Origin: Hyphococcus sp.
GTDB taxonomy: Bacteria; Pseudomonadota; Alphaproteobacteria; Caulobacterales; Parvularculaceae
Assembly: GCA_013002535.1 (NCBI GenBank)
Contig: JABDJK010000053.1
Span: 1-64,000 of the forward strand
Length of the DNA stretch: 64,000 nucleotides
Reading direction: 5' to 3'
Of the stretch, positions 2,543 through 19,798 are shown piece after piece. The notes beneath the pieces are model-generated. The model was given only the letters and a program-made list of their open reading frames with translations. It was not told the origin of the DNA and did not search any database. Each line of letters opens with the position of its first letter. Position 1 is the first letter of the stretch. Made by a program: the position numbers and the translations under genes.

Positions 2543-4059
2543 CGGAAGCGCGCGCCATAAAAATCGCCGTAACCGCCATGGGCGGGCAGGGCGGCGGCGT
2601 CCTCGCATCATGGATCGTCAAGCTTGGCGAGCGTGCGGGGTACATCGTGCAATCGACCTCCGTGCCCGGGGTGGCGCAACGGACTGGGGCAACGGTTTAT
2701 TACGTTGAGCTGTTCGCGGAAGCAGCTGCGAACGGAAGAATGCCGGTTATGGCGCTGATGCCTGCGTCGGGCGATGTTGATATCGTCATCGCAGCTGAAT
2801 TCATGGAAGCGGGACGCGCCATCTTGCGTGGGTTCGTCTCTGAACAAACGACGTTAATTGCGTCGTCCCATCGCGAATACGCCATCTCCGAAAAAATTGG
2901 ATTGGGTGACGCGCGCCAGGGCGTCGATGATGTGCGGGACGCAGCGCAGAAAGCCGCCAATCGGTTCATCGAGGCGGATATGGCTGCAGCCGCCGAAGCA
3001 TCCGGCGCGGTTATCAGCGCAGTATTGTTCGGCGCCCTTGCCGGATCGGGCGCGTTAACAATTTCGCGCGAAGTTTTCGAGGAAACAATCAAGTCCGGCG
3101 GCCGCGCTGTTGAGGCAAATCTGCGCGGATTCGCAATCGGCTTTGATTTGGCGACATCCAATACTAAAGCGACCGCCAAACCCGCAGCGGCGTCAGTCCC
3201 CAAAAATCAACCGTCGCATGCGATTTCGCTGCTGTTGGACAGAATGCGTGAAGAACTTCCGCCTGAGACACATGCCATTGTTTGCGAAGGGCTCAAACGC
3301 TGCGTTGATTTTCAGGACGTAAAATATGGCGATGAATATCTGAGTCGGCTGGCGCCGATCGCAGAGGCAGACAAACAATATGGCGACGGACAGAATTTTC
3401 GCTTGACGAAGTTAGCGGCAAAACACCTCGCGCTGTTCATGGCCTATGAAGACGCCATTCGCGTCGCCGATCTGAAAACGCGGAGAAGCCGGTTCGATCG
3501 ATTTCGTGAAGATGTGCGCGCTGAACCGAACCAGATTGTTGTTGTTCATGAATATTTGCATCCTCGTGTGGAGGAGATATGCGATATCCTGCCAGCCGGT
3601 CTTGCGAAAGGAATTCTGAAAGGGAAAACTCGCAAGCGGGTTCTTAAAGCAATTCTTGGCGGCGGCAAGCGTGTGCCGACGACGAAACTTCGTGGATTTT
3701 TGCAATTGTGGTTCTTGTCAAAACTTCGATTTATGCGTCGTCGGTCGTTCCGTTTTCGCATTGAACAAACGCGCATTCAGCAATGGGTAGACTTGATCAC
3801 GGAATTTGCGTCGCAAGACTATAAACTGGCGTGCGAAATTGCGGCTATGCAGCGTTTGCTGAAAGGCTACGGCGACACCCATGCGCGCGGGCTTGCGAAC
3901 TATAATCGTATCATGGCGCGGATCGAGGAAATTGTTCGCCAACCAAACCCTGCAGCGACGTTGTCTGCACTACGCGATGCAGCGTTGAAAGACGAGGAGG
4001 GCGCGGAGCTGGTTTCTGCGATGGACCAGTTACAGCCCGCACAAGACGCTGCGGAGTAG
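2539..4059 (+). CDS. iorB: Indolepyruvate-type ferredoxin oxidoreductase, gamma/beta subunit with DUF6537-like extension
   Basis: Partner subunit of the preceding IorA-like protein. Residues 1-200 form the pyruvate-ferredoxin oxidoreductase gamma domain, with the phosphate/CoA-side glycine motif GGQGGGV near residue 17 and the conserved SVPGVAQRTGAT stretch. The product is 506 residues, far longer than the about 200-residue archaeal IorB. The extra part (about 220-500) is an Arg/Lys-rich helical extension of the kind found in bacterial long-form IorB proteins (DUF6537); its role is not known to me. The GTG start overlaps the iorA stop by four bases. No separate ferredoxin gene follows. The gene ends facing the oppositely oriented monooxygenase operon, with a palindromic repeat between them. 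Confidence 0.8.
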   Translation: MTEARAIKIAVTAMGGQGGGVLASWIVKLGERAGYIVQSTSVPGVAQRTGATVYYVELFAEAAANGRMPVMALMPASGDVDIVIAAEFMEAGRAILRGFVSEQTTLIASSHREYAISEKIGLGDARQGVDDVRDAAQKAANRFIEADMAAAAEASGAVISAVLFGALAGSGALTISREVFEETIKSGGRAVEANLRGFAIGFDLATSNTKATAKPAAASVPKNQPSHAISLLLDRMREELPPETHAIVCEGLKRCVDFQDVKYGDEYLSRLAPIAEADKQYGDGQNFRLTKLAAKHLALFMAYEDAIRVADLKTRRSRFDRFREDVRAEPNQIVVVHEYLHPRVEEICDILPAGLAKGILKGKTRKRVLKAILGGGKRVPTTKLRGFLQLWFLSKLRFMRRRSFRFRIEQTRIQQWVDLITEFASQDYKLACEIAAMQRLLKGYGDTHARGLANYNRIMARIEEIVRQPNPAATLSALRDAALKDEEGAELVSAMDQLQPAQDAAE

Positions 4060-4132
4060 ACCGTCAATTTCGTCGTCGTCGGATTTATTTCGAACAACTC
4101 GGTACAAATTGCAATATCGTTAGTTTTTCTAT

Positions 4133-4212
4133 TGTCATTGCCGAACTTGTTCCGGCAATCCGGACTGAGGCGCTTGTGGCCGTAGATTACCGGGACAAGC
4201 CCGGTAATGACA
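4133..4212. repeat. Two-hairpin dispersed palindrome, copy 1
   Basis: An 80-bp element bounded by TGTCATT (4133-4139) and AATGACA (4206-4212). Inside are hairpin 1, ATTGCCG/CGGCAAT (4137-4143 and 4153-4159), and hairpin 2, ATTACCGGG/CCCGGTAAT (4186-4194 and 4200-4208). Related copies lie at 16690-16767 and 57157-57233. The layout, two REP-like hairpins in opposite orientation, resembles a REPIN. It sits between two convergent units, and hairpin 2 followed by T-rich sequence could also end iorB transcription. Confidence 0.75.
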
Positions 4213-4258
4213 GTTATTTTATTTTTCGCTTTGTGCGCAGCGCGCAAGTGAGGACGCT

Positions 4259-6640
4259 TTACCCGTCGGCCTGCTGATAATGTCGCCGGGTTGGTCGGGC
4301 TTTCAAAGCCAGATCCAACGTCTTTTCGTTTGCTTTCTCAGCCTCGCGGAATAGCTGATATTCGCCGGATTGCAATTGTTTCGGCCAGTTCGCGGCGGCG
4401 TCGCGCACGCCGTAATGCCCAGCTGCGTGGCGCGTCCAGTAGGGATTGTTAAGATGCGGACGGGCAAGGGCGCATAAATCTGCGCGTGACGCAGCGATGA
4501 TCGCATTCACCTGTTCAGGCAAAGTGATATCGCCGACCGCAATCGTCGGGATGCCGACTTTATGTTTGATAAACTCGGCGAAAGGCGTCTGCCACATGCG
4601 GCCATAAACTGGTTTTTGCCATGGCACGGTCTGGCCTGATGAAGCGTGAACAATATCGACCCCTGCGTCTTTGAAGGCACGAGCGATGATTTCGAGTTCA
4701 TCCCAGCCGAGGCCGCCCGGCGCCCAGTCGCTTGAGGAAAGGCGAACGGACATTGGTTTTTCATCCGGCCAGATAGCGCGGATCGCCTCAAAGACTTCAA
4801 GTGGAAACCGCGCGCGCGATAATGCATCGCCGCCATACTCATCGGTACGCTTGTTGGTGAGCGGCGAGAGAAAGCTTGCGAGCAAATATCCGTGAGCGCA
4901 GTGCAACTCGAGCATGTCAAAACCGGCGCGCTCCCCGCGTTCTGCTGCAGCGACAAAACTCTCACGGATGTCGTCCATCTGTGCGGGTGGGAGTTCTTTA
5001 GGCGTCGCCGAGACGCCGTCGAAATAAGGGATGGGTGAGGCAGAATAAATCGGCCAATTGTCATCTTCGAGCGGGATGTCCATCCGGCCTTTTTCGTCAG
5101 CCATGGGTGTTTTCGTGGAGCCCTTGCGGCCGGCATGGCCAAGTTGCAGGGCAATTTTCGAAGCGCTCGTCTCATGAATATTCTCAACGAGGCGTTTCCA
5201 GTCCGCTTCCTGCTCTTCGCTCCAGAGACCGGTGCAGCCGGGCGTGATGCGCGCGTCCGGCGTCGGGCAGGTCATCTCAACAAAAATGAGCCCGGCGCCG
5301 CCGCGCGCGAAGTTTGTGTAATGACCGAAATGCCAGTCGTTGATGTTTCCATCGTTGGCGCTGTATTGCGCCATGGGCGCGACGGCAACGCGGTTGGATA
5401 ATATTAGGCCGCGCAACCCGAATGGCGTAAACATCGGAGTCGGCCGAGCAGCGGCGACATTGCGACCGGTTTCGCGGTGGAAGCGGCCGTAAAACTCATC
5501 TTCGGTTTTATTCACGAAATCATCGTCGCGCAATTTCATGTTGTCCCAGGTGATCGATTTCGCCCGCGACATGATCGAGAAAACAAATTCGTATCGCTCC
5601 TTATCCCAATGCATGGACATATCTTCGAACCAGCGCAGGGAAACGGCGGCATTGTGCTGTGTAATTTCGACGGGCGTTCGGCGTCCTTTTTCGTAAGCGG
5701 CGAACGCGGCGTCGCGATCACTGGGGTTCGCGACGACGGCATCGGACAGCGCGATTGCGCATTCCATGGCGAGCTTTGTGCCGGACCCGATAGACCAGTG
5801 GGCCGTCGCCTTGATATCGCCGAGCATCACGAATTTGTCATGGCTCCAGCGTTCGCAGGCGATCACCGGAAATTTACGCCAGATGGATTTGTTGGTGATG
5901 AGCCCATGGCCTTCTAGATCATCGGCAAAGATCTTTTCAATCTCGCGCGCGGAGTCGTCTTCGCTCATCTCGGCGAACCCCGACGTGTCCCAGCACTCCG
6001 GCGTTGTCTCAATGACCCAGGTCGAGCCGCCTTCTTCATATTGATAGGTATGAGCGCAGAACGGTCCGTGCTCCGTCTGGCGAAAAAAGAAGGTGAACGC
6101 GTCGAGTGGTTTGGTGGAACCGAGCCAGGTGAAATAATTGCGGCGCTCTTCAACGGCGACGCCAAATTCATCAGCATATTTCTCGCGTATGGGGGAGTTG
6201 ATGCCGTTTGCCAGGACGATGATGTCGGAATCTGCGAAACGTTCTTCGAAACTTTCAACGTCGATCATTTGTTCGAAGTGAAGCCCAACACCCTCCTGTT
6301 CGCATCTTGTTTGCAGCAGCTGCAAAAGCGTTTTTCGGGAGCAGCCAGCAAAACCGTTGCCGCCAACGATCGTGCGTTCGTCACGATGCTTTACGACAAT
6401 ATCCGTCCAATAGGCGAAAGAGTCCTTGATCATATCGTAGGATTGCGGATCAGCGCTCAGGAATTCATCCAATGTCTCGTCAGAGAAAACGACGCCGAAG
6501 CCGAATGTATCATCGGCGCGGTTTTGTTCGAAGACGTCAATTAGCGCAGCTGGCAATCGCTTTTTTGTCAGCAATGCGAAATATAACCCACCGGGGCCGC
6601 CGCCGATGACTGTTATTTTAGGCGCGCCGTCAGGCATCAT
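4259..6640 (-). CDS. Bifunctional aminobenzoyl-CoA/salicylyl-CoA monooxygenase-reductase (FAD hydroxylase fused to Old Yellow Enzyme domain)
   Basis: Two flavoenzymes in one 793-residue chain. Residues 1 to about 390 are a class A FAD monooxygenase with GGGPGG near residues 13-18 and a later GD-containing FAD motif (MLGDIKATAHW). Residues about 400 to 780 are an Old Yellow Enzyme/2,4-dienoyl-CoA reductase-type FMN barrel (PMFTPFGLRGL, VAVAPMAQYSA, QLGHAGRKG, ELHCAHGYL). This architecture is that of 2-aminobenzoyl-CoA monooxygenase/reductase, which hydroxylates the CoA-activated ring at C5 and then reduces it without cleaving it; the annotation bifunctional salicylyl-CoA 5-hydroxylase/oxidoreductase is used for the same fusion. 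ATG overlaps the ridA end by 11 bases. It is the last gene of the MarR-controlled operon. The substrate (anthraniloyl versus salicylyl or benzoyl analogue) cannot be told from sequence, and no aryl-CoA ligase is present here. Confidence 0.8.
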   Translation of the reverse strand: MMPDGAPKITVIGGGPGGLYFALLTKKRLPAALIDVFEQNRADDTFGFGVVFSDETLDEFLSADPQSYDMIKDSFAYWTDIVVKHRDERTIVGGNGFAGCSRKTLLQLLQTRCEQEGVGLHFEQMIDVESFEERFADSDIIVLANGINSPIREKYADEFGVAVEERRNYFTWLGSTKPLDAFTFFFRQTEHGPFCAHTYQYEEGGSTWVIETTPECWDTSGFAEMSEDDSAREIEKIFADDLEGHGLITNKSIWRKFPVIACERWSHDKFVMLGDIKATAHWSIGSGTKLAMECAIALSDAVVANPSDRDAAFAAYEKGRRTPVEITQHNAAVSLRWFEDMSMHWDKERYEFVFSIMSRAKSITWDNMKLRDDDFVNKTEDEFYGRFHRETGRNVAAARPTPMFTPFGLRGLILSNRVAVAPMAQYSANDGNINDWHFGHYTNFARGGAGLIFVEMTCPTPDARITPGCTGLWSEEQEADWKRLVENIHETSASKIALQLGHAGRKGSTKTPMADEKGRMDIPLEDDNWPIYSASPIPYFDGVSATPKELPPAQMDDIRESFVAAAERGERAGFDMLELHCAHGYLLASFLSPLTNKRTDEYGGDALSRARFPLEVFEAIRAIWPDEKPMSVRLSSSDWAPGGLGWDELEIIARAFKDAGVDIVHASSGQTVPWQKPVYGRMWQTPFAEFIKHKVGIPTIAVGDITLPEQVNAIIAASRADLCALARPHLNNPYWTRHAAGHYGVRDAAANWPKQLQSGEYQLFREAEKANEKTLDLALKARPTRRHYQQADG

Positions 6641-7040
6641 CGCGCTCCGGAATAACGGCCGTCGTTTCTATTTCGATCTTCGCCTTGTCTTCGACCAGAG
6701 CAGCGACTTCGACCAGCGCCATGCACGGAAAGACTTTGCCCAAAACATCACGCCAGGCGCCGCCGATCTCTTTTGCGTCGTTGAGATATTCGCGCTTCGA
6801 CGTGACGTAACAGGTCATGCGGACAATGTGAGATGGTTCGGCGCCGCCTTCAGCAAGTATTGCTTTGGTGTTCACCAGCGCCTGGCGAAATTGTCCGGCG
6901 AGGTCTTCGTATGGAAATTCTTCTTGCTCGTTCCAGCCGACAACGCCCGCGGTAAAAACCATTCGCCCAGACGCGGCGATGCCGTTGGCGTAGCCTTTCG
7001 GCCGCGGCCAGCCTTCGGGCTGCAATACCTCATGGCTCAT
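6630..7040 (-). CDS. RidA/YjgF family enamine/imine deaminase
   Basis: A 136-residue protein of the RidA (YjgF/YER057c/UK114) family, which hydrolyses reactive enamine or imine intermediates in the cytoplasm. Family features are the N-terminal [17 protein letters not shown] stretch and the later [20 protein letters not shown], where the family Arg that anchors the substrate carboxylate lies. It overlaps the upstream acyl-CoA dehydrogenase by four bases (ATGA) and the downstream monooxygenase-reductase by 11, so translation is coupled. In this setting a role in hydrolysing the cyclic imine or enamine formed when an amino-substituted ring is dearomatised is a reasonable inference; it would favour an aminobenzoyl-CoA rather than a salicylyl-CoA substrate. 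A general housekeeping role cannot be excluded. Confidence 0.8.
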
Positions 7041-8215
7041 GAAGCGGTTCCTTTTTTGAATTGTTCGAGATGTTGGCGCGCGATGACAATCTTTTGAACT
7101 TCCGAGGCGCCTTCATAAATCCTGAGGGCGCGGATCTCGCGATAAAGTTCTTCGACTTTCACGCCTTTTTTGACGCCAAGCCCGCCGAAAAGCTGCACCG
7201 CCCTATCGATCACCTGTTGCGCCTGATCCGTTGCGTAGAGTTTAGCCATCGCTGCCTCACGGGTGACGCGGGTTTTCCTGATGTCCTTGGTCCAGGCCGA
7301 GCGATAAACCAGCAGCGCTGCTGCATCGATATTGAGCGCCATTTCGGCCAGCGACGCCTGCGCCAACGGTAAATCCGACAGCGTCGCGCCGAACATTTCG
7401 CGGGTCAATGCATGTTTAGTCGCTTCGTCGAGGGCGCGTCGGGCAAATCCTAGGGCAGCTGCACCGACGGTCGTGCGAAATATATCGAGGGTTGCGAGGG
7501 CTGCTTTGAACCCCAGGCCATCTTCGCCGATGAGTTGCCCGGCGGGAACGCGGCATTTGTCAAAGGCGAGGGTCCCAAGCGGGTGCGGGGCAATTACATC
7601 AATGCGTTCACTGACGGAAAATCCCGGCGCATCCGCGTTGACGACTATACCGGTGACCCCCGCCTCGGTTCGGGCGAAAACGCAATAGAAGTCGGCGATG
7701 CCGCCATTGGAGATCCAGGTTTTCTCGCCGTTGATTATATAGTCGTCGCCATCCGCCTTCATTGATGTCGTTAGCGCAGCAGCGTCGGAGCCGGCATTTA
7801 TTTCTGAAAGCGCGAATGCCGCAATTTTGTTTCCGGCGGCAACGGCAGGAAGGTAACGTTTCTTGATTTCTTCAGAAGCGAATAAACTGATCGCGCCAGA
7901 CCCAAGCCCCTGCATGGCAAAAGCAAAATCTGCAAGGCCGGAATGGCGTGCGAGCGTCTCGCGAATAATGGCGAGGGAGCGAACATCGAGGGCGTCATGA
8001 GCGCCGCCATACGCCGCCGGGACGCAAAATTTTAACCAGCCAGCTTGGCCCAACGCGGCGACGAGTGCGCGGCAGGTTACATCAACATCGTTATGTGCGC
8101 CGGGCTTTTCTACGATGTCGGGCAGGGTGCTTGCCGCCCAATAATCGAGGTCGAGGGCAAGCTGTTTGTGACGCGGCTCCAAGAACGGCCAGTCGAGATA
8201 GCTCTTGTCCGCCAT
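7037..8215 (-). CDS. Acyl-CoA dehydrogenase
   Basis: FAD-dependent alpha,beta-dehydrogenation of an acyl-CoA, passing electrons to ETF. The 392-residue length is normal. Visible are the N-terminal helical domain, the middle-domain FAD stretch ([15 protein letters not shown] and TWISNGG), and the C-terminal YEGASEVQ motif near residue 372 whose Glu fits the catalytic base of the medium-chain/isovaleryl group. It starts one base after the enoyl-CoA hydratase stop and overlaps ridA by four bases. In the operon it would act on the alicyclic or ring-opened CoA thioester made after ring reduction. The exact substrate is unknown. Confidence 0.85.
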
Positions 8216-8216
8216 A

Positions 8217-9026
8217 TTAATCGCCCTCGAAAACAGGTTTTTCTTTCTTCACGAAAGCATTGTAGGCGCGCTCAAAATCTTTCGTTTGCATGCAAATCGC
8301 TTGGGCCTGGGCCTCGGCTTCTATTGCAGTATCGAGGCTCATATCCCATTCAATATTAAGTTGGTTTTTCGTCATACCGTTGGCGAAATTCGGACCCGAA
8401 GCAATTTTCTGGGCCATCGCCATGGCGTGTTCGTCCAGCTTGTCGGCGTCAACGATCTGATTGAAATAACCCCAGGCGAGACCTTCCTCGGCTGAAAAAC
8501 TGCGGCCAAAATAGAGCAGCTCGCTTGCGCGGCCATGGCCAATAATGCGGGGCAGGATCGCGCAAGCGCCCATATCGGCGCCAGCGAGTCCAACACGATT
8601 GAACAAAAAGGCGGTCTTTGCGTCCGGTGCGGCGTACCGGATGTCCGACGCCATGGCGATGATGGCGCCGGCCCCAGCGCTGATCCCATCGACTGAGGCG
8701 ATGATCGGCTGCGGGCAGTTACGCATCGCTTTGACGAGATCGCCTGTCATTCGCGTGAAATCGAGAAGCTCCGGCATCGACATTTTGGTGAGGGGTCCGA
8801 TGATTTCGTGAACATCGCCGCCGGATGAAAAATTACCGCCGGTCCCGCCAAAGACAACCACCTTCACCTCTTTTACGTAGACGAGCTCGCGAAACATATC
8901 ACGCAGCTCAGCATAGGAACCGAACGTAAGTGGATTTTTTCGTTCCGGTCGGTTAAGCGAAACGCGGGCGACGCCGTCTGCATAGTCCCATTTAGAATGT
9001 TTGGGGGAATAACTTTCGGGCTTCAT
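8217..9026 (-). CDS. Enoyl-CoA hydratase/isomerase family protein
   Basis: A 269-residue crotonase-fold enzyme. The two oxyanion-hole segments are visible: [12 protein letters not shown] near residue 66-77 and [12 protein letters not shown] near 112. [15 protein letters not shown] and [10 protein letters not shown], typical of the C-terminal half of the fold, follow. Two Glu/Asp positions of true hydratases are not obvious in the second segment, so it may be a hydratase, an isomerase or a ring-opening hydrolase. It overlaps the marR stop by four bases and is followed after one base by the acyl-CoA dehydrogenase, giving a beta-oxidation-like step next to the ring-attacking flavoenzyme. Confidence 0.8.
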
Positions 9027-9487
9027 GCGGCGTCCTTTCTTACAACGGAGTCGCGAATGGGCACGCGGATTTTACCGAGAATATTTCTCAGGGTTGTCAG
9101 GTCTTCGCTAGATAAGTCAGCGAGGGCGTTAGAAATATGCCTGCGATTCTGTGCAGCCATCCGATCAAAAACTTTACGGCCTTTACTCGTCAGCCTGAAA
9201 TAGGCAACACGGCCATCATCATCTGCTTTGGTTCGTTTGACGAGGCCGTCTCGAATCAGGGGCGCTGTAACTTGCGTCGTGTTGCCTTCGGTCACCATCA
9301 AGAGTTGCGAAAGCTCGCCGGCGCGGAACCCCGTCTCCGGCGCGCGATCCAATGCCGCCAGAACGTCGAACCGCGATATCGACAATCCGAAATCACTGCG
9401 AAAGTTCGTATCGACAGATTTTTTTAAACTATTCGACGCTTTCAACAGGCCAAGCCAGGCGCGCAGCGCATCCGCTTCCTGGCTCAT
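9023..9487 (-). CDS. MarR family transcriptional regulator
   Basis: A 154-residue winged-helix regulator. The core is about residues 35-100: [46 protein letters not shown] (recognition helix region) and the wing [16 protein letters not shown]. It is the second gene of the operon, overlapping its neighbours by four bases on both sides, so it is made together with the catabolic enzymes. MarR relatives in aryl-CoA degradation clusters usually repress and respond to the CoA thioester. The palindrome AATACTTTAGTATT at 10237-10250, inside the operon promoter, is the likely operator (inference). Confidence 0.85.
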
Positions 9488-10233
9488 GATACGGTCTCGC
9501 CGCCGTCGATGGTGATGGATTGGCCATTAACGGATGCCGCCGCATCACTCGCCAGCCACAACGCGGCGCCAGCAACTTCGCTGGGATCAATCAAGCGGCC
9601 CATTGGATTGCCGCTGACAAAAGCGGCGAGGGCGTCTTTGCGGTTCTTGCCGGTTTTTGCCATGACTTTCTCAAGGGCCTCATCGACCAGCGGGGTGTCG
9701 GTGTATCCAGGGCAGATTGCGTTCGCAGTGACGCCGGTTTTTGAGAGTTCCAGCGCTAGCGTCTTCACCCAGCCGAGGACGCCGTGTTTTGCGGCTGCGT
9801 ATGCGCCGACATAAGAGTATCCTTTCAGCGCCGCCGTAGACGCAACGACAATATAGCGTCCCCATTTTCGCTCAACCATTTGCGGGATTGCGGCGCGGGC
9901 GCAGAGATAAGTGCTGGTCAAATTGACGCTCAGCATTTGATCCCATGTTTCGCGATCAGTCTTTAGGGCCGGCGCCGTGGCGGCGGCGCCCGCATTAGCA
10001 ACGAAGATATCAATGTCGCCAGCTGAGTTGACGCCATCAATGACAGACTGTTCGTCAGTCACGTCTATTTCGACATATTCGTGCCCAGCCGCTTCAAGTT
10101 TTGATTTATTGCGACCGGCGATAATGACTTGGTGCCCGGCGCCGCAAAAATTCTGCGCGATCGCCAGGCCGATGCCTGATCCGCCGCCGGTGACAAACAC
10201 GCGTTTTTGGTTGCTGCGTTCTTGACCGCCCAT
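9484..10233 (-). CDS. Short-chain dehydrogenase/reductase
   Basis: A 249-residue classical SDR using NAD(P)H. It has the nucleotide motif TGGGSGIG at 15-22, the structural NAG motif near 82, the catalytic Ser near 137 and YAAAK near 150-154. Its C-terminal GGETVS end follows NGQSITIDGG. It is the first gene of the operon and probably oxidises or reduces a hydroxyacyl-CoA or ring ketone intermediate; 3-hydroxyacyl-CoA dehydrogenase activity would complete the beta-oxidation set, but this is inference. There is no Shine-Dalgarno sequence in front of the ATG. A promoter with good hexamers places the transcription start on the ATG itself, so the mRNA is probably leaderless. Confidence 0.85.
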   Translation of the reverse strand: MGGQERSNQKRVFVTGGGSGIGLAIAQNFCGAGHQVIIAGRNKSKLEAAGHEYVEIDVTDEQSVIDGVNSAGDIDIFVANAGAAATAPALKTDRETWDQMLSVNLTSTYLCARAAIPQMVERKWGRYIVVASTAALKGYSYVGAYAAAKHGVLGWVKTLALELSKTGVTANAICPGYTDTPLVDEALEKVMAKTGKNRKDALAAFVSGNPMGRLIDPSEVAGAALWLASDAAASVNGQSITIDGGETVS

Positions 10234-10268
10234 ATAAATACTTTAGTATTAAAATAAAAGCTTGTCAA
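10234..10268 (-). promoter_or_regulatory. Leaderless promoter with MarR-type palindromic operator
   Basis: Read on the minus strand there is a perfect -35 TTGACA (10268-10263), a 17-bp spacer, and a -10 TAAAGT (10245-10240). The seventh base after the -10 is the A of the SDR start codon at 10233. The -10 lies in the centre of the palindrome AATACT-TT-AGTATT (10237-10250), so a bound repressor would cover the promoter. The MarR encoded by the second gene of this operon is the natural candidate. Confidence 0.65.
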
Positions 10269-10484
10269 TTGATCTACTATGGGCAGCGCACCCGCCAAAA
10301 GCCCAAGATTGGCGATTTCGTAAAGGATCAGAAAATATCACGGCTGGGCCGCTTGACGGCGGCCCCAAAATCATTACCTAGGCGTCGTCTTCCGACATCT
10401 GAAGGTTCAAGCAGCGTCAAATCGGCGCCCGCTAAACTGTATCTTCCGGTCAACATAGGAGCCCGCCAAGAGGCGGCTATCGAT

Positions 10485-10757
10485 ATGGCGAAAAAAGGCA
10501 AATCCGGCGACACTTCCAAAACGATTGAGGGCAAAGCGTCGGAGAACAAACAGAAAAAGAAAACAAACCCGCTTGAGTTCATTCAACAGGTTCGCGGCGA
10601 GGGCGCAAAAGTGACTTGGACCTCGCGTAACGAAACCATGGTGTCGACTGTCATGGTTTTGATCATGGTCGCGATCATGGCGCTGTTTTTCTTCCTGGTT
10701 GATCAGGTTGCCCGGTTCGGGATCTGCAACATCCTGCCCATTAACTGCGTTGCTTAA
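10485..10757 (+). CDS. secE: Preprotein translocase subunit SecE
   Basis: A 90-residue single-span SecE of the SecYEG translocon. After a Lys-rich start it has the conserved amphipathic segment PLEFIQQVRGEGAKVTWTSR and one membrane helix (about residues 50-73, VSTVMVLIMVAIMALFFFLV) followed by DQVARFG. The open frame continues upstream to 10269 but SecE proteins begin near this ATG, and AAGAGG stands 11 bases before it. It is followed nine bases later by the nusG frame, the classical secE-nusG pair. In most Alphaproteobacteria a tRNA-Trp precedes secE. Here the upstream neighbour is the divergent catabolic operon. Confidence 0.9.
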   Translation: MAKKGKSGDTSKTIEGKASENKQKKKTNPLEFIQQVRGEGAKVTWTSRNETMVSTVMVLIMVAIMALFFFLVDQVARFGICNILPINCVA

Positions 10758-10796
10758 AGATTTAAGATGCAAACCGCACAAATAACGGAACCCAAC

Positions 10797-11327
10797 ATGG
10801 CCGCACAATGGTACATCGTTCACGCTTATTCGAACTTTGAAAAGAAAGTCGCAGAGGCGATTATGATCGGCGCAAAGGACAAAGGTCTTACCGATCTTAT
10901 CGAAGAGATTTTTGTCCCGACCGAAGACGTGACCGAAGTTCGTCGCGGCCGCAAGGTGAATACGGAACGCCGGTTTTTCCCGGGTTATGTTCTTGTGAAT
11001 ATGGTTTTGAATGATGAGACCTATCACCTGATTAAAGCGACGCCGAAAGTGACTGGATTTTTGGGGTCCGGCAGCAAGCCAATGCCGGTGCCGCAAAAGG
11101 AAGTCGATCGAATTCGCGGCGTCATGGAAGAAGGCGAGACACGCCCGCGTTCGACTATTACCTTCGAGATTGGCGAGAATGTCCGCGTAACCGACGGGCC
11201 TTTCGCATCATTTTCGGGTGTTGTTGAAGATGTGGATGAGGAAGCGGAACGCTTGAAGGTCGCCGTGTCAATTTTTGGCCGCTCGACGCCGGTCGAACTG
11301 GAATTCACGCAAGTCGAAAAAACTTAA
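10797..11327 (+). CDS. nusG: Transcription termination/antitermination protein NusG
   Basis: A 176-residue NusG that binds RNA polymerase and links it to Rho or the ribosome. The NGN domain starts WYIVHAYSNFEKKVAEAI and includes RRFFPGYVLVNM. The C-terminal KOW domain starts GENVRVTDGPFASFSGVVE. The chosen ATG at 10797 gives the usual MxxxWYIVHAYS start; an in-frame ATG at 10767 would add ten residues not typical of the family. It follows secE closely. The usual next genes rplK-rplA-rplJ-rplL are absent: a convergent glycosyltransferase begins three bases after the stop. Confidence 0.9.
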   Translation: MAAQWYIVHAYSNFEKKVAEAIMIGAKDKGLTDLIEEIFVPTEDVTEVRRGRKVNTERRFFPGYVLVNMVLNDETYHLIKATPKVTGFLGSGSKPMPVPQKEVDRIRGVMEEGETRPRSTITFEIGENVRVTDGPFASFSGVVEDVDEEAERLKVAVSIFGRSTPVELEFTQVEKT

Positions 11328-11330
11328 GCC

Positions 11331-12209
11331 TCACGCCGCATTGCTTACGGCCAGCGCCGGATTCTCTTGCAGCCGCGCCAGCGTATTTTGATCATAGAAA
11401 TAATAGAGCGGGTGCTTTCGCGGCCGCTGTTGCTCGAGATTATCGCGGGTGTAAATTTCTGAGATCATTTTTGGCATGGCTTCGATGCCATCGCGTTTCA
11501 GGATGCTGTACAAAATCTGTTTTTGAATGTGACGCTCCGAATAGCGCTTCAATCGGCGATCGAATAACCAGAGATCGCGCGCATTGAGCGCCAGCGATTC
11601 AAATTCGAAGGTTGCGTCATCGACGACTACAATATTCTCCCGATGGATGTCGTTTGTCCCGCCAGCAAAATCAGTCAGTAGAATGTATGAGATCAACCCG
11701 TCTTCGCCCTTGGCGCCGACCGGAAAGTAAATTTCCTTGTCGCGAAACGTTTCCAGCGCCCGGTTTGACAGAGCATAGAGATTACCGCTCAGATAGTTTT
11801 TGGTCAGAAGCAACTTCGCCCATTCACGCTGGCTGCGGCCTGACGCCGGCAACGCCGCCGCGCCATATGCGGTTCGGTTTTTTTGAAGGGCGCCATGCAG
11901 TGCTGCGATCGATCCTTCGCTCGCCATTATATCGCCATCACAAAAAACATGAGTATCCGCGGTCGGGGCCAGGCGAAATACATAATCATTCCACGCGCCA
12001 GCTTTATCGGCCATGGAAATGTGATGAACAGTCGTATACGGATTGGCTGACGCAAGCGTATCAGCGACATTAGCTGTGCCGTCAGTTGAGCCATTTTCCA
12101 GAATATGAATTTCATGGTCGAGACCATGGGCGGCATTTACCGCGGCGTTGAAACAATTCGCCAGCAGGCGTTCCTCATTATGAGCGAATATGCAGATCGA
12201 AACAGACAT
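11331..12209 (-). CDS. Family 2 glycosyltransferase (GT-A fold)
   Basis: A 292-residue GT2-type transferase. It has the N-terminal nucleotide-sugar motif SVSICIFAHNEERLL, the ENGSTDGT turn near residue 38-45, and an acidic metal motif CDGDIMAS near 91-97. No membrane helices are apparent. About residues 165-200 contain GEDGLISYILL, resembling the acceptor-side ED motif of GT2 enzymes. It is convergent with nusG and may belong with the MBOAT/SGNH genes that decorate a surface glycan, though it lies about 2 kb from them with two unrelated genes between. Acceptor and sugar are not known. Confidence 0.7.
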   Translation of the reverse strand: MSVSICIFAHNEERLLANCFNAAVNAAHGLDHEIHILENGSTDGTANVADTLASANPYTTVHHISMADKAGAWNDYVFRLAPTADTHVFCDGDIMASEGSIAALHGALQKNRTAYGAAALPASGRSQREWAKLLLTKNYLSGNLYALSNRALETFRDKEIYFPVGAKGEDGLISYILLTDFAGGTNDIHRENIVVVDDATFEFESLALNARDLWLFDRRLKRYSERHIQKQILYSILKRDGIEAMPKMISEIYTRDNLEQQRPRKHPLYYFYDQNTLARLQENPALAVSNAA

Positions 12210-12299
12210 TTTCGGTTATGTGCTGGTTTCCTAAATGACGAAGTATCCAGCGATTTGTTTAATATTATCTATTGGAAAATCGCTTCACGCGGCGGATGT

Positions 12300-12599
12300 T
12301 TACTCGTCGTTATCGTCCTCCGGCGCAGTTCGCCGTATCTGCCGCGCCAACCAGTTTGGTATAATTTCTTCGAGGCGGTCGAGTTTGCGGTCAAGCCAGC
12401 GCCAACGCCTTCGTATCCAACGAACAAAATCGGGCGCAGCAGCTGTTAACAGGAAGAACCCAAGGATAATGAAAACTATGCCAAAGGGGACGGGTGAGGG
12501 CGCGACTATTACGCCAATAATGATCAACAACACCGCGAATGCCGCCACCATAAACTTAAATAGGCTTGCGATAAGCCCAGTACTGTGCCGCTTCGCCAT
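12300..12599 (-). CDS. Small two-helix membrane protein (PGPGW-like)
   Basis: A 99-residue protein with two hydrophobic segments (about 12-30 and 34-52) joined by a short Pro-rich turn APSPVPFG. An Arg/Trp-rich cytoplasmic tail (RWIRRRWRWLDRKLDRLE) follows, with an acidic end. The pattern helix-PxPxPFG-helix-basic tail is that of the PGPGW transmembrane family, of unknown function. The frame stays open upstream to 12878, but that part is antisense to the HD-domain gene and reads as shadow; the ATG at 12599 follows AGCGGGA. Confidence 0.65.
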   Translation of the reverse strand: MAKRHSTGLIASLFKFMVAAFAVLLIIIGVIVAPSPVPFGIVFIILGFFLLTAAAPDFVRWIRRRWRWLDRKLDRLEEIIPNWLARQIRRTAPEDDNDE

Positions 12600-12695
12600 T
12601 TCCCGCTGCCGCCCCTGCTTGATGCGATAATGATGAACCCCTAATCTAAGCGCGACGGAACATCGCGCCAAGTGAAATTCGAAAGGATGCTGTAA

Positions 12696-13292
12696 ATGGG
12701 AGATGAATCGCCGAAGATCGCCAAATTCAAGGCGATGACCGAAGGCACCCAGGAGGATTGGGGGATTATCGCCAGCCATTTTTTGCCCTTCGCTGCGAAT
12801 GGCGGTGAGCGCGTTCTCGATCATCTTCGCATTCTGGACGGCGATTATGGCGGGTTTCCCGTGGACCGGCTTGAGCATTCATTGCAAACCGCGACGCGGG
12901 CGCATCGCGACGGCCGCGATGACGAATATGTCGTATGCGCACTCTTGCATGACATCGGGGATACGCTTGGCGCTTTCAATCATCCGGATATCGCCGCGGC
13001 GATTTTAAAACCTTTTGTATCCGAGAAAAATCACTGGATGGTCCAACATCACGGGATTTTTCAAGGATATTATTTTTTCCACTATCTCGGTATGGATCGT
13101 GATATGCGCGATCAATTCAAGGATCATCCGTATTATGATTATACTCATGAATTTTGCCACGAGTATGATCAAAGGGCCTTTGACAAAGACTATGATTCTT
13201 TGCCGCTGGAATTTTTTGAGCCGATGGTGAAAACGATGTTTTCGTCACCGAAGAATTCGGTCTACGGGCCGGCGACGCAAGCCGCTGAATAG
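12696..13292 (+). CDS. HD-domain protein, possibly an HD-domain mixed-valent diiron oxygenase relative
   Basis: A 198-residue single-domain HD protein. Metal ligands are visible as H84 region EHSLQTATRAH, the HD pair in LLHDIGDT near 90, and later His residues in WMVQHHGIF. The motif order (YGG, then EH, LLHDIG, then HHG) is like that of PhnZ/TmpB oxygenases, which cleave organophosphonates, and of the wider MIOX-like group. The Glu that follows the Tyr in PhnZ is replaced here by Phe (DYGGFP), so the substrate must differ if it is an oxygenase. A phosphohydrolase role is the alternative. It stands alone between two minus-strand units, with AGGAT ahead of the ATG. Confidence 0.65.
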   Translation: MGDESPKIAKFKAMTEGTQEDWGIIASHFLPFAANGGERVLDHLRILDGDYGGFPVDRLEHSLQTATRAHRDGRDDEYVVCALLHDIGDTLGAFNHPDIAAAILKPFVSEKNHWMVQHHGIFQGYYFFHYLGMDRDMRDQFKDHPYYDYTHEFCHEYDQRAFDKDYDSLPLEFFEPMVKTMFSSPKNSVYGPATQAAE

Positions 13293-13307
13293 GCCGCTGC
13301 GGCGCAT

Positions 13308-14351
13308 TTATTTGCACGCCCCTTCGCGGCTGAAAAATTTGCCCGACGCGACGAGTTGTTCAGTAAATCGTTTGGAGGCTTCGGCGGCGCCGTCCGCGTT
13401 TAGATGGGTCGCATCAAGCCAAAATTCGTGATCCGTGGCGATGTCGGCGCCAAGGTCAAATGACGGCGTCTGCAATCGGATCTCAGCGAGCATGTCAACT
13501 GGTGCGGCGGGTTCGCCATAAGCAGGCATGTATGCATATTCAACGTCCCCGCCATGAGCCGCGCCGACACGCTCAATCTTATTTAGATAGATGCGCGCAA
13601 AACGATATTCGGCGAATTTCAAAGGTCCTGGTAAAAAAAACGTCCGGTGTATCTTGGCCGCGCGTTTTTCGCGTAAGAATTCCATGTGTTCGCGAGAGTG
13701 GGTGATGCGGCGGGATTTGATGCGCCCGTCAATGGCGAACATGATTTCCGTAAGATCAAGATTGGGGCCGGCATAGTCTTCCTTATCAAAGCTTTGGCGA
13801 ATTTTTGGACGGTTCAAAACCTTTTCTATGAAGAGTTGGAACTGTCGCCCTGGCAAACGGATGAGGTCGGAAAAATAATTGAGATTTAGGATCAGCGGTG
13901 CGCTCAACACATCTTCGGCGTTAGCGAGAATAATAAAGCCCGGATGCGGGCGGCGCGATTCTACGTCGTTTAATTCGACGACGATTAGCGCCGGCGCCTT
14001 TTGGCGGGCCGCTTCTTTTGCAATGACATAATGCATATTGCGGCCGGTCACAGGAATCGCGAAGTTTGCAACGTGAATGCGGCGACCGGTCGCCTCGCAA
14101 TAAGCACGCTCAATCTGTGGGCCGGAAAGACCGCCCGCCATGCGTGAGGTGCCGATGAGGGCGACGTCAACGGGCGTCTCGTCAAAGTGCAGGCGCTCAT
14201 AGATCCAGTCGGCTTTGCGCGTTGTGACGTTGTCGTGGGCCTGAAAGCGATAATACCGTTCATGAGGCAACATCACTGAACTCGACAAAAGGGCGCCAAG
14301 CATCACGATTGCTGTGAACAAAAAAACGAGGGGTGAGGTTTCGCGGTCCAT
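13308..14351 (-). CDS. SGNH-type protein paired with MBOAT acyltransferase (AlgX/DltD-like)
   Basis: A 347-residue protein with one N-terminal membrane anchor (about 5-25) and a periplasmic SGNH-like domain. The Ser block reads ALIGTSRMAGG and the C-terminal Asp-His block DATHLNADG near residue 325. Such proteins stand next to MBOAT enzymes and complete O-acylation of secreted polysaccharides, as AlgX and AlgJ do for alginate. The MBOAT gene is directly upstream: its TGA is four bases before this ATG. An alternative ATG at 14396 would overlap the MBOAT end by 41 bases and has no ribosome site. Confidence 0.75.
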   Translation of the reverse strand: MDRETSPLVFLFTAIVMLGALLSSSVMLPHERYYRFQAHDNVTTRKADWIYERLHFDETPVDVALIGTSRMAGGLSGPQIERAYCEATGRRIHVANFAIPVTGRNMHYVIAKEAARQKAPALIVVELNDVESRRPHPGFIILANAEDVLSAPLILNLNYFSDLIRLPGRQFQLFIEKVLNRPKIRQSFDKEDYAGPNLDLTEIMFAIDGRIKSRRITHSREHMEFLREKRAAKIHRTFFLPGPLKFAEYRFARIYLNKIERVGAAHGGDVEYAYMPAYGEPAAPVDMLAEIRLQTPSFDLGADIATDHEFWLDATHLNADGAAEASKRFTEQLVASGKFFSREGACK

Positions 14352-14355
14352 GGCG

Positions 14356-15819
14356 TCAAAAATTGAAATAGATGAAAACGGCGGGCTGCCACGCAACGGC
14401 GACGCCGGCTGCGAGCATGATGGCGGTTGCGGTTGCCGCGAGCGGCGTCGGGCGCATGATTTTGTTTGATGGCGCGTCGAGATTAGGCAAGGGTTTATCG
14501 AGGCGATCTGTGTAACCGGTGACCTGCAATGAATTCGGCGCGAAAAGCGCGAGGCCCGACGCGAAAAACATCAGCGCTGCAATTTCGGCATTGAGACTAA
14601 ACGACGTTTGCGCGCCATCGAACAATCCAGTGATAATTGTCATTGCCGTGCCGGTCGTGTCAGCACGGAAAAAGACCCAGGCGAGCATGACAAAGACCAG
14701 GGTGGCGCCGCGTTTTACAACAACACTCGGCAAATCGTTCCAACGGTCAAACGCCGGCGCAAAGGTGCGGAGCGCGTGGTTGGCCGTGATTAACGCCGCG
14801 TGGATTGCGCCCCAAATTACAAACGTCCACGCTGCGCCGTGCCAGACGCCGCCAATCAACATCGTCAGGAAAATATTTCGAAGACGGAACAACTGTCCGC
14901 CGCGGTTGCCGCCGAAACGAATGTAGACATAATCACGAAGGAAATTTGAGAGGGTAATGTGCCAGCGCCGCCAGAATTCAATGATCGACTTTGATTTGTA
15001 TGGCGAGTTGAAATTGATCGGCAGGCGAATGCCGAACATGAGGCCTAGCCCGATCGCCATGTCGCAATAACCGGAGAAATCGAAATAGATCTGTAGGGTG
15101 TAACCGATTATGGCGATCCATGACATGGCCATGGATATGGGTTCACCTGAAGCGGCGGATGTCCAGATCGGGTCGATCGCGCGCGCTATTGGATCGGCGA
15201 TCAGCGATTTCTTGGCGAGCCCCATAGCGAAAATCATCAAACCATAGGCGATGAAATTCAGGTTTACCGGCGACTTCGTGAGGGCGGCAAATTGCGGGCG
15301 TGTGTGGTTATGGTGGACGATAGGCCCGGCGATCAATTGCGGGAAAAATAAAACGAAGAGCGCGTAGTTGCGTGGCCCGCGCTCATACTTTCTCGTGGTG
15401 TAGCAATCGACGATGTAACCGATCTGTTGAAACGTGAAGAACGATATTCCGAGGGGCAGGAGAATATTCAATAGTCGCCAGTCATTGCCGGTAAGCGTCG
15501 CAAGATTGGTTCCCGCGAAATCGAGGTACTTGAAAATAAAGATCAGCAACAGATTGCCGATGATCGCGGTCGCAGCAGCAGTGCGCCGTGCAGGCTTTGT
15601 TTGCAGCGTTGCCGCGGCGCGCCCGAGAGCGAAGTTTCCTGCGATCGACCCAAGCAAAAGCACAAGATGCGCCACTGACCAATAGGCGTAGAAAACAAAT
15701 GATGCGATGAGAAGAAACGTCACTGACGCGCCGAATGCGCCGCGTGATCGCAGGGCGTAAAACCCGAGCAATACCGCCGGTAAAAATACCAACAAGAAAA
15801 TGTACGAACTAAATACCAT
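14356..15819 (-). CDS. MBOAT family O-acyltransferase (AlgI/PatA-like)
   Basis: A 487-residue polytopic inner-membrane enzyme that moves acyl groups, usually acetyl, across the membrane onto a surface glycan or peptidoglycan. Family marks are the N-terminal FSSYIFLLVFLPAV, FFPQLIAGPIVHH, the segment KSIIEFWRRWHITLSNFLRD, and the catalytic-His region IGGVWHGAAW with the essential His near 330. About ten or eleven hydrophobic segments can be counted. The SGNH-like partner follows at once, giving the usual two-gene module; a GT2 gene lies 2 kb further. The decorated polymer cannot be told from the sequence. Confidence 0.88.
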   Translation of the reverse strand: MVFSSYIFLLVFLPAVLLGFYALRSRGAFGASVTFLLIASFVFYAYWSVAHLVLLLGSIAGNFALGRAAATLQTKPARRTAAATAIIGNLLLIFIFKYLDFAGTNLATLTGNDWRLLNILLPLGISFFTFQQIGYIVDCYTTRKYERGPRNYALFVLFFPQLIAGPIVHHNHTRPQFAALTKSPVNLNFIAYGLMIFAMGLAKKSLIADPIARAIDPIWTSAASGEPISMAMSWIAIIGYTLQIYFDFSGYCDMAIGLGLMFGIRLPINFNSPYKSKSIIEFWRRWHITLSNFLRDYVYIRFGGNRGGQLFRLRNIFLTMLIGGVWHGAAWTFVIWGAIHAALITANHALRTFAPAFDRWNDLPSVVVKRGATLVFVMLAWVFFRADTTGTAMTIITGLFDGAQTSFSLNAEIAALMFFASGLALFAPNSLQVTGYTDRLDKPLPNLDAPSNKIMRPTPLAATATAIMLAAGVAVAWQPAVFIYFNF

Positions 15820-15842
15820 ACCACAGGCGCCTGATTGGCGCC

Positions 15843-15868
15843 GATCCGCTCTTCACCTGGCGCGGATC
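15843..15868. other. Inverted repeat upstream of the MBOAT gene
   Basis: GATCCGC (15843-15849) and GCGGATC (15862-15868) form a perfect seven-base inverted repeat 24 bases upstream of the MBOAT start. It could be an operator or a leader hairpin; nothing else supports either. Confidence 0.3.
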
Positions 15869-15944
15869 ATGATGGTTAATGGTCAGTGTTTCGTTAAGGC
15901 AGTGCGGGTCGCGGCGCTTGGATATGTTGCGCGTTTAGATTTCG

Positions 15945-16673
15945 TTAACTGCCGGCGGTGATGCGGCGTGCATAGAAAAACTCATAGTCAGGGCGGCACG
16001 CCTCAGCGATTTCTTCATGGGCGCCGGAGAGGTGGATTTCTCTTTCTAAATAGGGTTGAAAGCCGGTCGATTTCTCGACAGCGTCATACCAGTGCGCCCC
16101 CCAGACGCCATCGCTGTCGCGTCGTCCGGCGGGCCAGTTCAGCATCGCCTCATCAAACCGGATATCCAGGGCGCTGCACAGGGCGCGTAGCATTGCTTTC
16201 GGCGCTTTGAGCATGTCGCTCGCATCGACAACCGGTGTTGGCTGTCCATTCGCTTCGGCGAAATCAAAGATCCGGCGTTGCACCGTCAAGTTGTCGATGA
16301 TCGGCGCCACGTCATCATATTTGTTGGCGTAGGAGGCCACCATAGCGCGGGGATCGCGGATTAACTGAATGATGCGAACGCCTTTCAACCAGTCATCGTC
16401 ATCGTATTTTGCGAAATGAAAGGCGATGTTTTTTTCAAATGAAATATTCTCGCCGTCTGTCGGATTTTTTTCGAGATTGGCAACGACATCTTCGCGCGCA
16501 TGGGGCTGCGTATCCAATATTGCCTGACGCATGGGGTGTTGCGCGCCGCTTTCAGAAAGGTAGGCGGCGTAGAACGGCTCATCATGGACGATGGTGTCTG
16601 CGCGGTTTTCGAACGCGCGCATCATCGTTGTCGATATGTTGCGCGGGCCGGAAAACATGGAAATGCGTATCAT
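15945..16673 (-). CDS. Sulfotransferase-like P-loop protein
   Basis: A 242-residue protein. The N-terminal SGPRNISTTMMRAF (residues 8-21) matches the 5'-phosphosulfate loop of PAPS-dependent sulfotransferases, and LIRDPRAMVASYANKY near 110 matches the 3'-phosphate motif. No signal peptide, so it should be cytosolic. A related P-loop domain is, to my knowledge, fused to a class IV aminotransferase in some plant and algal branched-chain-aminotransferase-like proteins. Here the aminotransferase of that same group lies 0.6 kb upstream on the same strand, which suggests a functional link. Whether it transfers sulfate or acts as a kinase-like or other P-loop enzyme is not known. Confidence 0.65.
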   Translation of the reverse strand: MIRISMFSGPRNISTTMMRAFENRADTIVHDEPFYAAYLSESGAQHPMRQAILDTQPHAREDVVANLEKNPTDGENISFEKNIAFHFAKYDDDDWLKGVRIIQLIRDPRAMVASYANKYDDVAPIIDNLTVQRRIFDFAEANGQPTPVVDASDMLKAPKAMLRALCSALDIRFDEAMLNWPAGRRDSDGVWGAHWYDAVEKSTGFQPYLEREIHLSGAHEEIAEACRPDYEFFYARRITAGS

Positions 16674-16689
16674 AATCTAATTTCTGGAG

Positions 16690-16767
16690 TCATTGTCGGA
16701 CTTGCTCCGACAATCTAGAAAAATGAAATAACGCCGCTGGATTACTGGAACAAGCCCGGTAATGACA
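16690..16767. repeat. Two-hairpin dispersed palindrome, copy 2
   Basis: A 78-bp element starting TCATTGTCGGA and ending CCCGGTAATGACA. It shares the hairpin stems (ATTGTCGGA/TCCGACAAT and ATTACTGG/CCCGGTAAT) and the AGAAAAAT-type linker with the copy at 57157-57233, and the overall plan with 4133-4212. It lies between the sulfotransferase-like gene and the next minus-strand gene. Confidence 0.75.
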
Positions 16768-16793
16768 CAAGAATTAGAATAGACGGGATAGGC

Positions 16794-17228
16794 CTAACGC
16801 AATTTCGCTTTTTTATCAGGCGTCAATTCGATGGTCGGCTGCTTTTCTTTCTGTGGCGCCTTAACCGACGGCACGTCAGCGCCGTAATCCTCAAGCATGT
16901 TGAGAATATATTGCGAAGATGAAATTACTTCCTTCGCGGCGTCGGATTTGCGCTTGGTCATCTCGACCTGGTTTTCCATAGCGTCAACGGCGCGATAGGT
17001 TTTCTCAACTGCCGAATTGAAATCACGCAGAAGCGTTTTCAAGTCCGGGTCATCCCCGGCAAGCTTCGATGCGGCCACATTGTGGAGCCGAGCGACTTCG
17101 CCGCCGAGTTCACCCATTCGCCGGCGCATGCGCTTGCCGAAAATCAAATCGAAAATCATTGCGCCGACGATTAAACCCGCAATCGCCGCAACGCTGCTTA
17201 CCAATACCAGTTGAGTCACCACCTGCAC
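16794..17228 (-). CDS. Membrane-anchored coiled-coil protein of unknown function
   Basis: I do not recognise this 144-residue protein. It has one N-terminal membrane helix (about residues 6-31, QLVLVSSVAAIAGLIVGAMI), then a basic patch KRMRRRMGE. A long helical region with heptad-like spacing (about 38-115) and a charged Lys/Pro-rich tail follow. The layout, a short anchor then a cytoplasmic coiled coil, resembles DUF1043/YhcB-like proteins only in shape. The start is ambiguous: GTG codons at 17228, 17222 and 17219 are all in frame, the last two preceded by CAGGGG at a usable distance. The class IV aminotransferase ends 34 bases upstream on the same strand. Confidence 0.6.
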   Translation of the reverse strand: MQVVTQLVLVSSVAAIAGLIVGAMIFDLIFGKRMRRRMGELGGEVARLHNVAASKLAGDDPDLKTLLRDFNSAVEKTYRAVDAMENQVEMTKRKSDAAKEVISSSQYILNMLEDYGADVPSVKAPQKEKQPTIELTPDKKAKLR

Positions 17229-17262
17229 CCCTGCAAATACCCACCGTTAATATTTTGGCGAA

Positions 17263-18189
17263 TTATCGGCCTTTGGCAACCTCTTCGGCGATATGGGAGA
17301 GATAAAATGACTGCAGTTGTTTGGTTAACGGGCCGATTTTGTCAGAAATTGCCCGGCCATCGACGCTTGCGACGGGGGATACGCCGGCGAAGGTGCCGGT
17401 AATAAAGGCTTCATCGGCGCCATAAACATCATGGAGTGAGAAGTTCTTTTCCTGCGCCGTAACGTCATTTTCGCGGGCAAGGGTAAGTATCGTTGAGCGC
17501 GTAATCCCGCCGAGGCAATAGTCGCCGGTCGAGGTCCAGAGTTCGCCGCCACGCACAATGAAGAAATGCGTTGAGTTGCAAGTGGAGACAAACCCGTGGG
17601 GATCGAGCATCAAAGCCTCATCAGCGCCGGCCTTCGCGGCCTGAATGCAGGCGAGAATGCAATTCAGCTTGGAATGTGAGTTCAGCTTCTGGTCCTGCAC
17701 GTCGGGATAGCCTCGCCGCACGTGAACGGTGAAAAGATTTGCGCCGGCAGTCTTTTCAACGGGGCGTTTAAATTCCGGGATAATGACAATCGTTGGCGGT
17801 GTGATAGTCGCGCGCGGATCCTGATACGGCGTCGCCTTAATCCCGCGCGTACACATCAGACGTATATGGACGCCTTCATGGGCGTCATTCGCGTCGAGGC
17901 AATCATAAAGGCGTTTCGTTAATTCATCCTGTGAGACGTTCATTTCGAAGTCGAGAGTTTTGGCCCCGTCATAAAGCCGCGTCAGATGGCGATCGAGAAA
18001 CGCGATTACGCCTTTACCGTCCGGTCCAGGATAGACGCGCAATCCCTCCCAAACGCCATCACCGAGCACATAACCGGAATCGAATACCGATATTTTGGCC
18101 TGATTGCGTGCGAACAACTCGCCATTGATGTCAATCTGAATAGCGTCATTGCGCGGGTCGCTTTCATAGGCGTGGGTCGAATGTGTCAT
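17263..18189 (-). CDS. Class IV PLP aminotransferase (branched-chain/D-amino-acid aminotransferase-like)
   Basis: A 308-residue PLP enzyme of fold type IV. Visible are SVFDSGYVLGDGVWEGLRVY near 34-53 (arginine that binds the substrate side), DQKLNSHSKLNCILA near 165-180 with the Schiff-base Lys in DQK, and ITRSTILTLA and TGTFAGVSPV for the phosphate. The canonical Glu after the DPHGFVS turn is replaced by a CNSTHFF segment. The sequence resembles the branched-chain-aminotransferase-like group whose eukaryotic members carry a P-loop sulfotransferase-like domain, rather than IlvE or PabC. The amino donor is unknown. Downstream on the same strand lie a coiled-coil membrane protein and the sulfotransferase-like gene. 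Confidence 0.8.
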   Translation of the reverse strand: MTHSTHAYESDPRNDAIQIDINGELFARNQAKISVFDSGYVLGDGVWEGLRVYPGPDGKGVIAFLDRHLTRLYDGAKTLDFEMNVSQDELTKRLYDCLDANDAHEGVHIRLMCTRGIKATPYQDPRATITPPTIVIIPEFKRPVEKTAGANLFTVHVRRGYPDVQDQKLNSHSKLNCILACIQAAKAGADEALMLDPHGFVSTCNSTHFFIVRGGELWTSTGDYCLGGITRSTILTLARENDVTAQEKNFSLHDVYGADEAFITGTFAGVSPVASVDGRAISDKIGPLTKQLQSFYLSHIAEEVAKGR

Positions 18190-18277
18190 CTTTCCGGTTC
18201 CAACTGTTGGCGTTGTTTGCGCAGCGCCATGAATACGGTATCGTTGCGGCGTCTATCAATCCATCGGAGGCTAAAAC

Positions 18278-19795: not shown

Positions 19796-19798
19796 GGG

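Follow-up and report, generated by a model that had tools for sequence, protein, structure and literature searches.

The six-gene catabolic operon on the minus strand of the window (i.e. the whole stretch of 64,000 nucleotides of Hyphococcus sp. DNA that was analysed) is quite probably repressed by the MarR-family regulator that it encodes, through a dyad lying over the -10 hexamer of its promoter, with the SDR-family dehydrogenase at its head being made from a leaderless mRNA. The MarR binding, the repression, the inducer, the exact start and the leaderless translation are what we infer here from sequence comparison. The gene order is SDR, MarR, enoyl-CoA hydratase, acyl-CoA dehydrogenase, Rid protein and two-domain flavoprotein, with gene ends that overlap or adjoin throughout; the four genes after MarR each have a Shine-Dalgarno sequence (SD), unlike SDR and MarR:

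9484..10233, minus strand: SDR-family dehydrogenase, first gene, without SD
9023..9487, minus strand: MarR-family regulator, probable repressor; its ATG overlaps the SDR stop (ATGA, 9484-9487), without SD
8217..9026, minus strand: enoyl-CoA hydratase family protein, above the NF006107 cut-off (466.7 bits, cut-off 330); SD AAGGA
7037..8215, minus strand: acyl-CoA dehydrogenase; SD GAGG
6630..7040, minus strand: Rid-family (enamine/imine deaminase-like) protein; SD AAGGA
4259..6640, minus strand: two-domain flavoprotein, salicylyl-CoA 5-hydroxylase/oxidoreductase-like, below the NF006101 cut-off (981.4 bits, cut-off 1078); SD GGAG

That the operon encodes a MarR, as an earlier note on this DNA had stated, is borne out by the winged-helix domain of the second gene (PF12802, 35.6 bits with a cut-off of 27; PF01047, 28.0 bits with a cut-off of 24.6), and among MarR proteins of solved structure 3boq is the closest in sequence (E 9.9e-28). 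Judging from the gene set and from the enzymology of such proteins, the operon likely degrades an aromatic CoA thioester such as 2-aminobenzoyl-CoA. Indolepyruvate-oxidoreductase genes (389-4059, plus strand) converge on it from its far end, while secE and nusG (10269-11327) are divergent from it; the secE frame is listed from a TTG (10269), which probably makes it too long, and an ATG at 10485 is a better fit.

The control region is compact, and its features are as follows:

10263..10268, minus strand: -35 hexamer TTGACA (sequence read, promoter scan and family comparison)
10240..10245, minus strand: -10 hexamer TAAAGT; the right arm of the operator begins with these six bases
10233, minus strand: predicted transcription start on the A of the SDR ATG (promoter geometry and homologue comparison)
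10238..10257, minus strand: conserved operator dyad TTATTTTA-ATAC-TAAAGTAT, consensus TTAnTTTA-N4-TAAAnTAA, axis 10247.5 (family and class comparison)
10237..10250, no strand assigned: palindrome AATACT-TT-AGTATT, axis 10243.5, perfect in this genome only (1 of 18)

On the minus strand TTGACA (10268-10263) is followed by a 17-nt spacer, TAAAGT (10245-10240), six bases and the ATG at 10233, which is the geometry that the earlier note had described; with a start 7 nt past the -10, the predicted transcript begins on the A of the SDR ATG. This promoter scores 10/12, the top of 14 promoter-like sites in a scan of 4000-20000, a number of sites that is no excess over shuffles (mean 11.5, sd 3.1). The absence of an SD before the SDR ATG also held up (no match of at least 4 nt was found), so that the gene combines a missing SD with a -10 ending 6 nt before its start codon.

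For comparison, we searched for the MarR in 60 related genomes (18 matched at E <= 1e-15, the window's own included), in a species-genome collection (16 loci, where most of the named neighbours are MAGs of Marinicaulis, Parvularculaceae and Robiginitomaculum), in 398 genomes of the order (68 matched at E <= 1e-30) and in 385 genomes of the class (67 matched at E <= 1e-28), with 40 class-level loci being chosen from 70 listed places. In total 110 loci were taken, of which 12 were set aside because the upstream region ran off the contig or no partner gene was present, leaving 98; per locus the best site within about 330 bp upstream was used. Removing five loci with a site of more than 5 mismatches and four without a usable start left 89 for the analysis of start codons. 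An SD was counted when at least 4 nt of AAGGAGGTG lay 4-12 nt from the start, and the start codon was chosen by a fixed rule, which favours an SD-bearing start where one is present and thus works against the leaderless reading.

Nevertheless, by this rule none of the 28 loci with a start 8-19 nt from the operator axis has an SD, nor do the two at 20-25 nt, compared to 30/37 at 26-59 nt and 13/22 at 60 nt and beyond. For L006 (counted at 26-59 nt) and L011 the rule had used a distal copy of the dyad; taken by hand from the proximal copy, both starts lie at 15 nt and are without SD, which makes 0/30 near-start loci. Other genes of the same 30 loci do have SDs (hydratase 17/17, dehydrogenase 17/18, Rid 15/23). 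Of the 30 near-start loci, 18 have a promoter with a -10 that ends 4-9 nt ahead of the start, versus 0 of 31 SD-led ones (window's family 7/9, the other two near-start groups 6/12 and 5/9); in shuffles the same rule is passed by 5.3%, 1.6% and 0.3% for the three near-start groups in order, and by 2.7% for the SD-led group. A promoter passing this simple rule is missing in 12 of the 30. Within the window's family, nine members have a near start codon, and eight of them keep TTGAC at the -35 position, the ninth (L135) having TTGCC. Following these comparisons with homologous operons, the first gene, SDR, is very probably leaderless, as the earlier note had proposed.

The three near-start groups differ in register: the window's family has its -10 in the right arm of the dyad, in group f4/g22 the flavoprotein ATG lies 1-3 nt past the site, and in group f3/g11 the site runs with its last bases into the ATG. 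At nine loci before the flavoprotein gene (L093, L094, L096-L099, L102, L136 and L137), the ATG overlaps the operator's last bases in all nine (e.g. AAATATG), with a possible -10 in the operator centre and no SD.

That SDR is not leaderless, being translated either from a leadered mRNA of an upstream promoter or from a GTG at codon 12, is unlikely. A precedent for the former exists in Zymomonas mobilis, where, in the sections of the study used here, roughly one in two leaderless transcription units (52) was accompanied by a leadered one whose promoter lay upstream (PMC7566282). For SDR, however, an SD is absent at both the ATG and the codon-12 GTG, no better minus-strand promoter lies upstream, and a start at codon 12 would cut nearly all residues ahead of the Rossmann glycine motif. 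In the nine f4/g22 loci, moreover, a GGGPA motif a few residues into the protein fixes the start, which nonetheless lies 11-13 nt from the axis, again without SD.

The leaderless state does not extend to all relatives. A clear state could be given to 63 loci (30 leaderless, 33 SD-led), with those of L006, L011, L022, L024 and L088 set by hand from the promoter-proximal site, and 58 entered a hydratase tree, five being without a usable hydratase. On this tree the label needs 4 changes versus 19.8 in shuffles, and at least three of the four are forced by well-supported branches, in a quick tree of which 19 of the 55 inner branches are weakly supported. The window's family itself holds both states (L022 and L024 SD-led, L006 and L011 leaderless). 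It thus seems that the start mode has changed at least three times.

The predicted operator is more widespread. At no more than 2/14 mismatches, the dyad is found upstream of the first gene in 41/62 order-level and 23/36 class-level clusters, compared to 0 of 1240 dinucleotide shuffles for the order and about 0.3% of 720 for the class; at no more than 3/14 these become 52/62 and 27/36, with 1% and 3.6% in shuffles. No site at this threshold was found in 10/62 order-level and 9/36 class-level clusters. By sequence, the operator is common among relatives, and the missing leader belongs to only some of them. The dyad tracks the operon's first gene, standing before SDR here and, in other families, before the gene for the flavoprotein. 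Five loci (L083-L086 and L134) have the cluster divided into two units; each unit carries a MarR and a dyad of its own (up to 3 mismatches), and the dyad on the SDR side is flanked by SDR and by divergent indolepyruvate-oxidoreductase genes, which share it. L135 (4016-4647) keeps the dyad, while the only MarR detected there is of a different type (40% identity) and divergently placed, so that co-occurrence alone does not settle which type of MarR binds. Likewise, we infer the connection of this MarR with this dyad from position and co-occurrence.

A palindromic site overlapping the promoter would fit a MarR repressor, and the family supports a predicted operator that overlaps the -10 of this MarR-encoding catabolic operon. 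The SDR upstream regions of the family carry one block (e.g. TTGAC-n-TTATTTTAATACTAAAATAA), which in several loci ends a few bases before the ATG. Since the -10 lies within the right arm and promoters are often AT-rich, this block could in principle be promoter and spacer only, with no operator in it. This is very improbable, because the left arm, which lies inside the spacer, is conserved too, because the register to the -10 varies between families while the dyad stays, and because a second dyad copy occurs 35-54 bp upstream of the promoter-proximal one in 11 of 18 family loci (L142, L026, L006, L022, L008, L024, L011, L139, L087, L088 and L089). In the window no second copy was found, the best match in about 10259-10480 having 6/14 mismatches. 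The axes of the tandem copies are 41-44 bp apart in seven loci, 54 bp in one and 35 bp in three; no single helical repeat fits these distances, and helical phasing of tandem operators was rejected on them.

To fix the exact position of the dyad, 18 promoters of family f1, selected by hand among loci that have a promoter-proximal site, were scored for complementarity about each possible axis. A single peak stands at the centre of TTATTTTA-N4-TAAAnTAA, with a mean of 6.94 of 8 arm pairs and a perfect dyad in 7 of the 18, whereas neighbouring axes average about 3.3/8. The earlier note had placed the operator on a perfect palindrome centred on the -10, and that palindrome does exist: AATACTTTAGTATT at 10237-10250 has perfect arms AATACT/AGTATT around TT, it overlaps the -10, and its axis (10243.5) and the -10 centre (10242.5) are about 1 bp apart. 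The conserved dyad, however, has its axis at 10247.5, i.e. 4 bp further from the gene. In the window both axes give 6/8 pairs (the palindrome's over longer arms), so the window alone is unable to separate them. That MarR recognises AATACT-TT-AGTATT is scarcely credible despite its perfect 6-bp arms and its uniqueness in the genome, because in the family these arms are perfect in 1 of 18 promoters (that of the window), the axis averages 2.83/8, near background, and the palindrome results from the match between the conserved centre, ATAC, and its mirror GTAT in the variant right arm TAAAGTAT that this genome has.

The search of the genome with the 14-mer, which had been suggested for defining a regulon, returned a single place: AATACTWWAGTATT is found once in the whole 3.44-Mb assembly. 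At no more than 3 mismatches the window has 4 matches versus 2.3 expected, and the 14-mer by itself is weak evidence. The refined operator likewise occurs once in the genome at no more than 1 mismatch, so no regulon is defined, and one based on the 14-mer was rejected. At no more than 2 mismatches there are six places, a reversed-pattern control being commoner (6 vs 33 per strand). The five besides the operator (L144-L148) all have 2 mismatches: those of L145, L146 and L148 are inside ORFs, that of L144 is past the 3' end of a 110-aa ORF, and that of L147 is 18 nt before a possible 181-aa ORF, yet inside an opposite ORF. At the indolepyruvate-oxidoreductase promoter of the window no site was found (best 5/14 mismatches). 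An aryl-CoA ligase gene under the same operator, given earlier as an example of a regulon member, was rejected as well: TIGR02262 (a benzoate-CoA-ligase profile with its cut-off) gave 11 matches, none above the cut-off and none on the contig of the window.

The preferred reading, of an autorepressed operon with a leaderless first gene, would then work as follows. A MarR dimer would sit on the dyad (10238-10257) and, with the -10 within the right arm, would bar RNA polymerase from the promoter of all six genes, its own included. A metabolite of the pathway, most likely an aromatic CoA thioester or its parent acid, would free MarR, upon which a leaderless mRNA would be transcribed from the A of the SDR ATG onward and SDR translated from it. 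As MarR lacks an SD and its ATG overlaps the SDR stop, and as the leaderless SDR start would be the sole ribosome entry ahead of it, MarR is probably translated by coupling to SDR, with the four later genes using their own SDs. It is a further and distinctly unlikely idea that selection holds the start codon against the operator in three alphaproteobacterial families (one with ATG overlap), such that repressor, polymerase and ribosome share about 25 bp, and that, as MarR would be translated solely through coupling to the leaderless SDR, MarR supply and operon output both follow the capacity for leaderless (70S) translation; if true, this would give a catabolic switch a translation-state input.

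With respect to known systems, the two-domain flavoprotein together with CoA-type beta-oxidation enzymes presumably resembles 2-aminobenzoyl-CoA monooxygenase/reductase clusters, from which the operon differs in that the NF006101 score of its flavoprotein falls short of the cut-off and a cognate ligase above its cut-off was not found. The operator does not appear in the titles and abstract openings on MarR or regulator with 2-aminobenzoyl-CoA, salicylyl-CoA 5-hydroxylase, 2-aminobenzoate-CoA ligase, anthraniloyl-CoA monooxygenase or leaderless, which is not proof that it is unpublished.

MarR_73 (IadR) of the Variovorax auxin-degradation locus is likewise a MarR repressor of an aromatic catabolic locus and leaves the DNA once its substrate is bound; its locus and enzymes differ, and the sections of that paper used here mention neither leaderless transcripts nor this dyad (PMC9613470). 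CrtR of Corynebacterium glutamicum is MarR-type, its own gene is reported as leaderless and autoregulation is discussed, but there, in the part of the source drawn on, the regulator gene itself is leaderless and divergent, whereas here SDR is predicted to be leaderless and MarR is second in the operon (PMC5401885). The cI genes of phages lambda and PY54 and cro of PY54 have repressor-controlled promoters with mRNAs that begin at the AUG (by RACE in PY54), as far as the excerpted account goes, although this is a phage switch and its repressors are unrelated (PMC4488713). In Zymomonas mobilis, of the same class, leaderless starts (there a leader of <=5 nt) are ordinary, with 119 of 2,675 TSS-gene pairs, and are not tied to this operon in the consulted text (PMC7566282).

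Neither MarR repressors that control aromatic catabolism nor alphaproteobacterial leaderless genes are therefore new. What seems worth following is the combination of a class-wide operator with a recurring change of start mode, leaderless or SD-led, within a single promoter type: a specific operator, TTAnTTTA-N4-TAAAnTAA, is offered for a MarR-regulated, aromatic-type operon across the class, and the homologous promoters, which share this operator and are by prediction either leaderless or SD-led, form a natural series useful for asking why leaderless genes are kept.
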